Program-made: the position numbers and the translations under genes
Shown here: one piece after another, positions 7,165 to 29,095 of the stretch
Position numbering within the stretch: the stretch's first letter is position 1
How the letters are laid out: every line of letters starts with the position of its first letter
Assembly: GCA_016208765.1 (NCBI GenBank)
Contig: JACQXK010000069.1
Coordinates: 1-41,505, forward strand
Reading direction: 5' to 3'
DNA length: 41,505 nucleotides
Origin: Candidatus Omnitrophota bacterium
GTDB lineage: Bacteria; Omnitrophota; Gorgyraeia; Gygaellales; Profunditerraquicolaceae
The notes under the pieces: generated by a model
Told to the model about the DNA's origin: nothing
The model's database searches: none
The model's input: the letters and a program-made list of their open reading frames with translations, nothing else

Positions 7165-7237
7165 GGGCCTCTAGCTCATCTGGTAGAGCACCACCCTTTT
7201 AAGGTGGGTGTGCCGCGTTCGAGCCGCGGGAGGCTCA
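7165..7237 (+). tRNA. tRNA-Lys (anticodon TTT)
   Basis: A complete 73-nt cloverleaf: acceptor GGGCCTC/GAGGCTC with one G-U pair, D stem GCTC/GAGC, anticodon stem CCACC/GGTGG around CTTTTAA (anticodon TTT), T stem CCGCG/CGCGG with loop TTCGAGC, and A as discriminator. CCA is not encoded. Confidence 0.95.
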
Positions 7238-7261
7238 TAAAATTGCATATTGCATGTCGCG

Positions 7262-7305
7262 TATCGCTTATCGCACGTCGTAAAAACGATTAGCGATTTG
7301 CGATA
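7262..7305. repeat. Inverted repeat of TATCGC words between tRNA genes
   Basis: TATCGCTTATCGC (7262-7274) pairs with GCGATTTGCGATA (7293-7305), leaving only two T-T mismatches. The whole tRNA-Lys/tRNA-Leu spacer is built from near-repeats of a short GCGATA/TATCGC word. It may be a processing signal or a by-product of slippage. Confidence 0.5.
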
Positions 7306-7323
7306 TGCCAAAAGCCAAGTTGC

Positions 7324-7405
7324 GGGCGGATGGCGAAATTGGCAGACGCGATAGCCTTAGGAGCTATTGGGGCAACCCTTGGAGGTTCAAGTCCTCTTCC
7401 GCCCA
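7324..7405 (+). tRNA. tRNA-Leu (anticodon TAG)
   Basis: A class II tRNA of 82 nt with acceptor GGGCGGA/TCCGCCC, D arm containing AATTGGCAGACGC, anticodon stem ATAGC/GCTAT around CTTAGGA (anticodon TAG), a long variable arm (GGGGCAACCCTT) and T arm GGAGG-TTCAAGT-CCTCT. The discriminator is A, as leucine tRNAs require. CCA is not encoded. Confidence 0.95.
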
Positions 7406-7419
7406 TTGTAGCTGGATCA

Positions 7420-7452
7420 GCTGAATTAGTTAATTAGCGTAACTAATTCAGC
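7420..7452. repeat. Perfect 13-bp hairpin in tRNA spacer
   Basis: GCTGAATTAGTTA (7420-7432) and TAACTAATTCAGC (7440-7452) are exact reverse complements around a 7-nt loop. The rest of the spacer to about 7480 continues with near-repeats of ATTCAACTA-like words. The spacer separates tRNA-Leu from tRNA-Gly and could guide precursor processing. Confidence 0.55.
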
Positions 7453-7488
7453 CAATTCAACTAGTTCAACTAATTAATTAAACGACAT

Positions 7489-7561
7489 GCGGGAGTGGCT
7501 CAGTTGGTAGAGCGTAACCTTGCCAAGGTTAATGTCGCGGGTTCGAACCCCGTCTCCCGCT
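7489..7561 (+). tRNA. tRNA-Gly (anticodon GCC)
   Basis: A 73-nt cloverleaf: acceptor GCGGGAG/CTCCCGC, D stem GCTC/GAGC, anticodon stem TAACC/GGTTA around TTGCCAA (anticodon GCC), T stem CGGGG-type arm with loop TTCGAAC, and T as discriminator. CCA is not encoded. Confidence 0.95.
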
Positions 7562-27949: not shown

Positions 27950-28049
27950 ATTTAAATGAATCTTCTGGATTGCTTAGGTTAATTCTCTTATATTTCTCCG
28001 GACACTTTAAGTATTCAGGTGCCAGGGCATATTTCTCGTAGCACCGCTT

Positions 28050-28366
28050 GATTTTCCCCGGTGTGGAAAATCTTCTCTCGGGCGAAAGCTCTTGCTCTCG
28101 CAGACTATGCAATAGCGGGCGAACCATGCCCGCAAGAGCTTTCTAACGTGCTGCTTAAAACATGCCTTGTCACCCAATTATCTAAAGCAAGAAAAGTTTC
28201 TGTGAGCACACAATCAGAGATTTTTTGGCACTGCGTTTTACTTAGAGTGTGCAAGGGATTACGGCGAACGAGAGTACGCAGGGTTTTGCGAAAGCCGTTA
28301 CGAGAGTGAGCCGTAAACCGAAGCACACGCCAAATTATCTCGTGTGCGAAGAGAAACTTTTATTGC
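28050..28366 (+). other. Nested inverted-repeat element, candidate structured RNA
   Basis: The 426-bp malQ-ttcA gap (27950-28375) holds no convincing gene but many helices. H1: GATTTTCC 28050-28057 with 28065-28072. H2: GAAAGCTCTTGC 28084-28095 with 28132-28143, with competing GCGGGC 28115-28120/28128-28133 inside. H3: 28187-28211 with 28342-28366, as 4 bp, a 1x1 loop, 10 bp, a 4x4 loop (GTGA/GAAG) and 6 bp. Inside H3: TTTGGC/GCCAAA (28224/28329), GTGTGC/GCACAC (28247/28323), TTACGGC/GCCGTAA (28259/28310) and CGCA/TGCG (28277/28287). G-A pairing in the 4x4 loop favours the plus strand. It ends 9 nt before ttcA. No known RNA family was recognised; a mobile palindrome is an alternative. Confidence 0.55.
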
Positions 28367-28375
28367 GATAAGAAC

Positions 28376-29095
28376 ATGCCAAATTTACACGGAACTGAAT
28401 TTTATATTTCAAAGCGGGTCGGTAAGGCGATTACGGATTATGGGATGATTGCCGATGGCGATAAGGTTGCCGTAGCTATCTCCGGAGGCAAGGACAGCCT
28501 GACGCTTTTACGCGTCTTGCAGGATCGCCAGGCATTTGTACCGATAAATTACGAAATTATTGCTGTTCATATTGATTTAGGATATCCTAAATCTTGTGCA
28601 AAACCGCTTGAGAAATATTTTAAGAAGCTTGGCGTTCGCTATCATATTGAAAAAGTTGACACCCTCATAAAAGGGCCAAAAAATAAAATAAATTGTTTTT
28701 GGTGTTCGTGGAACAGGCGTAAGGCCTTGTTTCAGGTTAGTGATAGGCTTGGTTGCAAGAAGGTTGCCCTTGGGCACCACACGGACGATATTGTAGAGAC
28801 TGTATTAATGAATCTTTTTTTTCATGGAGAGACTTCTGCGATGATGCCCAAGCAGGAGTTATTTAAGGGAAAGATTAATTTGATCCGCCCGCTCGCCTAT
28901 GTAGAAGAGCGGCTTATTAAGCGTTTTGTTAAAGATGAGAAAATACAAACTTTTGATTGCACCTGCCCTAATTCAATAACTTCTAATCGCAGCCGCATGA
29001 CACGCATTATCCGTGAGCTTGAAGAATTCTGCCCAGAGGTAAAAAAGAATATTTTTAACAGCGTAAAAAGGGTGAAAGAGGATTATTTGCTCTAA
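28376..29095 (+). CDS. ttcA: TtcA/TilS-family tRNA 2-thiolation protein
   Basis: A 239-residue PP-loop ATPase (SGGKDSL near residue 35) with a CxxC pair in CFWCSWNRRKALF, the GHHTDDIVET motif and a third cysteine region CTCPNS, all typical of the TtcA group, which thiolates C32 of tRNA using a [4Fe-4S] cluster. It is somewhat shorter than enterobacterial TtcA (about 310). Other TtcA-like proteins act on different sites, so the exact tRNA position is inferred. No Shine-Dalgarno is seen before the ATG, which follows a large structured region. Confidence 0.85.
   Translation: MPNLHGTEFYISKRVGKAITDYGMIADGDKVAVAISGGKDSLTLLRVLQDRQAFVPINYEIIAVHIDLGYPKSCAKPLEKYFKKLGVRYHIEKVDTLIKGPKNKINCFWCSWNRRKALFQVSDRLGCKKVALGHHTDDIVETVLMNLFFHGETSAMMPKQELFKGKINLIRPLAYVEERLIKRFVKDEKIQTFDCTCPNSITSNRSRMTRIIRELEEFCPEVKKNIFNSVKRVKEDYLL

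Follow-up and report, generated by a model that had tools for sequence, protein, structure and literature searches.

A two-module hairpin repeat scattered through the Omnitrophota, probably a non-autonomous mobile DNA element

The segment between malQ and ttcA in the window (the whole stretch of 41,505 nt of a Candidatus Omnitrophota contig analyzed here) is very probably a copy of a palindromic mobile element that is non-autonomous, resembles MITEs and REPINs, is about 350-370 bp long, and would be mobilized in trans. It appears to represent a previously undescribed, gene-less hairpin element that is scattered through Omnitrophota; a literature search, with subscription journals outside its scope, found no earlier paper on such repeats in this phylum. 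A sequence-only reading had offered a cis-regulatory leader, an independent RNA, or a nested mobile palindrome as explanations, and it is the last that the evidence upholds: copies are dispersed, their two modules keep the same order in several genera, orthologous sites are filled in some genomes and empty in others, and a whole 368-bp unit has been duplicated recently. Since a tested feature of each kind is lacking (target-site duplication for MITEs, a linked Y1 transposase for REPINs), we place the segment with palindromic non-autonomous mobile DNA and not with new RNAs.

The 317 bp singled out at first (28050-28366) make up most of a composite repeat of about 350 bp, at window positions ~28018-28370, which consists of two halves, modules A and B. 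The helices described there were all recovered, with limits that proved slightly short: copies and covariance models put the left end at ~28018 and the right end at ~28366-28370. The outer helix 28187-28211/28342-28366 is built as described (4 bp, 1x1, 10 bp, 4x4 GTGA/GAAG, 6 bp), and helices 28217-28229/28329-28341 and 28242-28265/28310-28333 nest inside it. The two upstream hairpins, 28050-28072 and 28084-28095/28132-28143 (12/12 complementarity), likewise exist, but not as stand-alone hairpins; they are arms of a closed module A (28018-28177) that has its own terminal helix. The segment ends 9 nt before ttcA (28376), as had been stated. Folding of 28040-28372 yields -117.3 kcal/mol, as compared with -91.7 +/- 5.7 in dinucleotide shuffles (z -4.5), and none of 100 shuffles folded as well. 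The parts of the element are as follows.

27987-28017, + strand: segment U, a conserved flank upstream of module A, seen at several copies of the same genome
28018-28177, + strand: module A, branched and palindromic, ~159 nt, one of 16 copies in the genome (covariance model R1, 168 bits, positions 1-159)
28018-28037, + strand: 5' arm of the module A terminal helix, GGTGCCAGGGCATATTTCTC, paired with 28157-28175; compensatory changes at several pairs
28157-28175, + strand: 3' arm of the module A terminal helix (..ACATGCCTTGTCACCC)
28038-28044, + strand: inner closing helix of module A, GTAGCAC, paired with GTGCTGC at 28148-28154
28050-28072, + strand: arm P1 of module A, GATTTTCC-CCGGTGT-GGAAAATC
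28084-28143, + strand: arm P2 of module A (28084-28095/28132-28143)
28105-28108/28112-28115 and 28117-28120/28128-28131, + strand: small helices within arm P2
28182-28370, + strand: module B, an unbranched hairpin, ~187 nt, one of 18 matches in the genome (covariance model R2, 210.8 bits; alignment)
28187-28211, + strand: 5' arm of the module B outer helix (the outer helix of the sequence-only reading), paired with 28342-28366
28342-28366, + strand: 3' arm of the module B outer helix
28217-28229, + strand: 5' arm of the second helix of module B, paired with 28329-28341
28231-28326, + strand: inner part of module B, with the apical loop and the greater part of helix 28242-28265/28310-28333

The terminal helix of A can be written as GGTGCCAGGGCAT.../...ATGCCTTGTCACC. 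In arm P1, double changes occur at 7/8 pairs across copies, and the loop is conserved (consensus CCCRGCGTGG). Segment U is kept at loci L011, L013, L014, and L018, partly at L009, and is absent at L010; it either belongs to the unit, in this genus, or is a common flank that existed beforehand. The inner ~96 nt of B are missing from some copies (L011, L014, L018, and L021) and, because they lie between GGCA direct repeats, were probably lost by slippage inside the palindrome. The earlier view that no coding frame explains the region holds: the 82-aa and 73-aa frames overlie covarying arms, on which ground the coding reading was dropped, and by inspection they are without a conserved protein. 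The element has no gene or ORF of its own. An Rfam search of the segment, a check that the sequence-only reading had itself proposed, returned no known family, either at the gathering threshold or at E<=10.

A second proposed check, for copies in the host genome, did reveal them. BLAST with 28040-28380 against the 2.4-Mb genome produced 27 matches, one of which is a full copy (84% identity), while many others are partial and have their break points in common; the covariance models, R1 built from A and R2 from B, matched 16 and 18 times, respectively. Three contigs of this assembly (C109 at its end, C121 and C35 at their starts) break off inside A or B copies, and the repeats are thus the probable cause of these assembly breaks. 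At the level of the GTDB family, searches with R1 found A in 83 of 108 genomes, representing 46 of 60 genera (0-27 copies per genome, with a median of 5 among carriers); the corresponding figures are 90 of 128 for the order and 118 of 285 for a sample of genomes from across the phylum. Module B was matched by R2 in 63 of the 108 family genomes, a count to be read with some caution, since R2 was made from a small set of sequences and long hairpins of any kind might match it; B copies of other genera were for this reason aligned directly, and they share a sequence core, GCGTGCAATTAGAAATTTTTCGGCA...GTGTGCAAGGCTTTACGGCGAG...CGAGCCGTAAACCGTAGCACACGGCGAAAAATTTCGCACGC, around which the outer stem differs and is still paired. 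The copy numbers of A and B are correlated (rho 0.44). The family also occurs in JAQTUD010000039.1, a record named Candidatus Omnitrophota, and a scan of viral contigs with an exact pattern gave no match.

Nearly all copies are intergenic, and some lie 12-20 nt downstream of stop codons. They have no preferred orientation to neighboring genes (54 versus 55 on the 5' side), and no gene recurs among 202 neighbor proteins, orthologues aside, two observations that speak against the cis-regulatory leader suggested at first. The malQ-ttcA spacer itself contains A and B in the genome studied here (G000) and in G001, an inverted A pair in G011, and a reversed A in G010 and G077; in G012, G020, and G022, ttcA has no A upstream of it. 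Module A being absent or reversed near ttcA in relatives, we rejected the idea of a ttcA leader; the element between malQ and ttcA is a passenger. Some sites, such as this spacer and the neighbors of ruvB in several genera, look old and vertically inherited. Elsewhere in the window, 7165-7561 hold an ordinary cluster of three tRNA genes.

Movement of the element is most directly seen in genome G114, where contigs C36 and C28 carry 368-bp A+B units that start at the left end of A and reach to the right end of B, are 99.2% identical, and have unrelated flanks. The sister species G096 has no insertion at the C28 site, and the genes that flank the C36 site abut (3-16 nt) in G111, G112, G115, G110, and G012. 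At a third site, G114 and G109 carry A, and G100 and G110 do not. In several genera, B follows A on the same strand after a gap of 10-25 nt; elsewhere, A is found alone or as an inverted pair, with pairs 30-90 nt apart in G009, G011, G001, G084, and G074 and many copies single or joined to B. No target-site duplication was detected over 112 A copies (flank match of 3.92, versus 3.86 in mispaired controls), and none is evident at the G114 sites. At some A copies, the flanks are complementary for 11-15 bp beyond the ends (L017:126-284, L056:1701-1860, and L073); this is a slight excess, 3.6% versus 0.1% expected by chance at a higher cut-off, and a few copies have 14-15 matched bases.

Several insertions have features of their own. 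At the right end of B in the G114 C36 copy (L233), the unit has taken the place of the upstream gene's stop codon, and the frame of this gene now ends at a TGA in the element end (TTGATATTTCGC). The equivalent site in G113 (L289, contig C4, 2083-2331) holds a different palindromic insertion of ~250 bp, which suggests another hairpin-repeat family and a common insertion spot. In contig C10 of G114 (L134, 404-1171), a spacer that is empty in G100 contains A together with the start of a pilin-like gene (MKRGFTLIELIV), and relatives of this pilin-like DNA are numerous in sister genomes. In contig C4 of G051 (L087, 4246-5874), an inverted A pair surrounds a trypsin-like protease gene, and the adjoining gene resembles DUF3800 proteins by eye.

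Compensatory changes, the third check proposed at the outset, are found in the stems of both modules and support a conserved fold. In 112 copies of A, 93.4% of cells are paired as compared with 69.9% when shuffled, the covariation score is 0.609 (0.184 shuffled, ~0.1 for slid structures), and double changes occur at 29/33 pairs; in 38 copies of B, two-sided changes occur at 41/56 pairs. Taken alone, covariation of this strength would suggest an RNA; the kind of change points otherwise. In a separate alignment, made of 105 A copies, ~2% of the standard pairs are G-U, G-U and A-C are nearly equal (94:88), and one-sided changes are far outnumbered by two-sided ones (70:955). Module B resembles A (G-U:A-C 48:36; one-sided:two-sided 44:339). 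By contrast, 30 RNase P RNAs from the same GTDB family, treated identically, display the RNA-type pattern that A lacks, tolerant of G-U and strand asymmetric, with 10.5% G-U, a G-U:A-C count of 275:97 (2.8:1), and a one-sided:two-sided count of 201:412. G-U exceeds A-C (92:31) in a model-fitted alignment of A, which is fitted to the + strand and in which one poorly supported helix supplies many of the G-U pairs. The - strand of A folds 8 kcal/mol better, with a nearly equal excess over shuffles (-16.2 versus -17.7 kcal/mol); after this correction for composition neither strand is clearly better, and we dropped the notion of a preferred RNA strand. Because double changes are nearly all Watson-Crick and G-U is about as frequent as A-C, unlike in RNase P RNA, the constraint, judged from these alignments, looks DNA-level rather than RNA-level and is best placed on cruciforms, on hairpins of single-stranded DNA, or on mutual correction of the arms during replication. 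Replication errors of the arm-correcting kind could give rise to double changes in the absence of selection, and some copies may be transcribed and act as RNA.

How would such an element move? We propose that the unit, in the fixed order of A (branched, ~159 nt), a short spacer, and B (unbranched hairpin, ~187 nt), is spread by an enzyme supplied in trans, which would recognize both the hairpins, whether extruded as cruciforms or formed in single-stranded DNA, and the conserved bases of their loops and bulges. This scheme does not assume recognition by a fixed terminal sequence; we infer recognition of hairpin shape because the terminal stems vary widely between copies, even within one genome, yet stay paired. 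In its boldest form, which we advance tentatively, the repeats would constitute a phylum-wide class of mobile DNA whose identity resides in covarying DNA secondary structure instead of terminal sequence and whose enzyme belongs to a class new to such repeats. If an enzyme does act on folded single strands, the copies are its natural substrates, with varied stems and fixed loops, from which the recognition rule could be read directly. No transposase gene was seen inside or beside the copies, and the genes between spaced A and B modules in G095 and G074 are ordinary, with no autonomous parent there.

Among enzymes already known, a tyrosine (Y1/HUH) transposase of the REP-associated type, with single-stranded hairpins as its substrates, would suit an intergenic element whose stems covary in a strictly Watson-Crick manner, whose A modules form inverted pairs 30-90 nt apart in several genomes, and whose insertions leave no target duplication; Y1 genes are, moreover, present in 90 of the 108 family genomes. 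Against this, A copy number shows no relation to the Y1 count (rho 0.02, p 0.80), no Y1 was detected in 15 genomes that together carry 86 copies of A, and of 32 Y1 loci none has A at its flanks and only one has B nearby. Lacking both correlation and linkage, a Y1 partner was set aside, and a REPIN-like origin is doubtful. A classical MITE, moved by a DDE transposase that recognizes terminal inverted repeats, would account for a small, ORF-less sequence in many intergenic copies and for the inverted ends GCGGGT...ACCCGC of many A modules. The absence of target-site duplications argues against an ordinary DDE transposase, the terminal stems are many covarying sequences and not one, also within single genomes, and no autonomous parent with A or B ends was found among the neighbors and A-B intervals; we regard this explanation as unlikely.

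Two alternatives remain. The repeats could be old, vertically inherited intergenic palindromes, now immobile, that are kept paired by arm-correcting errors and shuffled by recombination, which would fit the sites common to several genera (malQ-ttcA and ruvB), the strand-symmetric double changes, and the loss of inner B between GGCA repeats; this is quite improbable in light of the two 99.2% identical units at unrelated sites of one genome, one of them empty in a sister species, and of loops and bulges that are conserved besides the paired arms. The independent RNA suggested at first, taken here as a multi-copy structured RNA (a trans-acting sRNA or guide-like) whose fold is kept for RNA function, can claim the very strong covariation, conserved loops, full-length matches across the phylum, and copies just downstream of stop codons, and is nonetheless the least probable reading given the substitution pattern, the even folding of the two strands, the empty Rfam search, the random orientation, and an A+B unit that moves as DNA.

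A mobile palindrome remains our preferred reading, and of the systems already known, small repeats without genes resemble it most. REPINs and REP sequences are gene-less intergenic palindromes present in many copies, with inverted doublets and hairpins formed in single-stranded DNA (PMC3116915; PMC3733652); the Omnitrophota repeats share these traits, including inverted A doublets, but A and B are much larger and A is branched, the listed A flanks, viewed by eye, have no apparent common GTAG or CGTC tag, and copies are neither tied to Y1 number nor found flanking Y1 genes, as REPIN/RAYT systems would have it. Bacterial MITEs such as ERIC, RUP, Correia, and Nezha are short, gene-less, highly base-paired intergenic elements with terminal inverted repeats (PMC10969869; PMC3049150). 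Our element, too, is short, transposase-less, and dispersed in many copies, and the terminal helices of A and B amount to terminal inverted repeats; the sequence of these ends, however, covaries from copy to copy instead of being conserved, no target-site duplication was detected, and no related IS was found among the neighbor genes and A-B intervals. The pneumococcal BOX element, too, is a composite repeat in which distinct modules follow a set order and an internal part varies (PMC3049150); A and B differ from it in comprising two modules only with no tandem boxB-like array, in extending across a phylum instead of a few species, and in showing no target duplication. With these repeats, an uncultured phylum gains a mobile-element family that is abundant and old, has been active recently, and would account for some assembly breaks. 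Finally, the branched fold, strong covariation, and conserved loops recall the structured RNAs of Rfam, from which the repeats are set apart by the lack of a match and by changes that are Watson-Crick only and strand symmetric. Strong covariation, commonly accepted as proving that an RNA is functional, can also be a property of palindromic mobile DNA, and near-absent G-U together with equality of G-U and A-C offers a simple test to tell the two apart.
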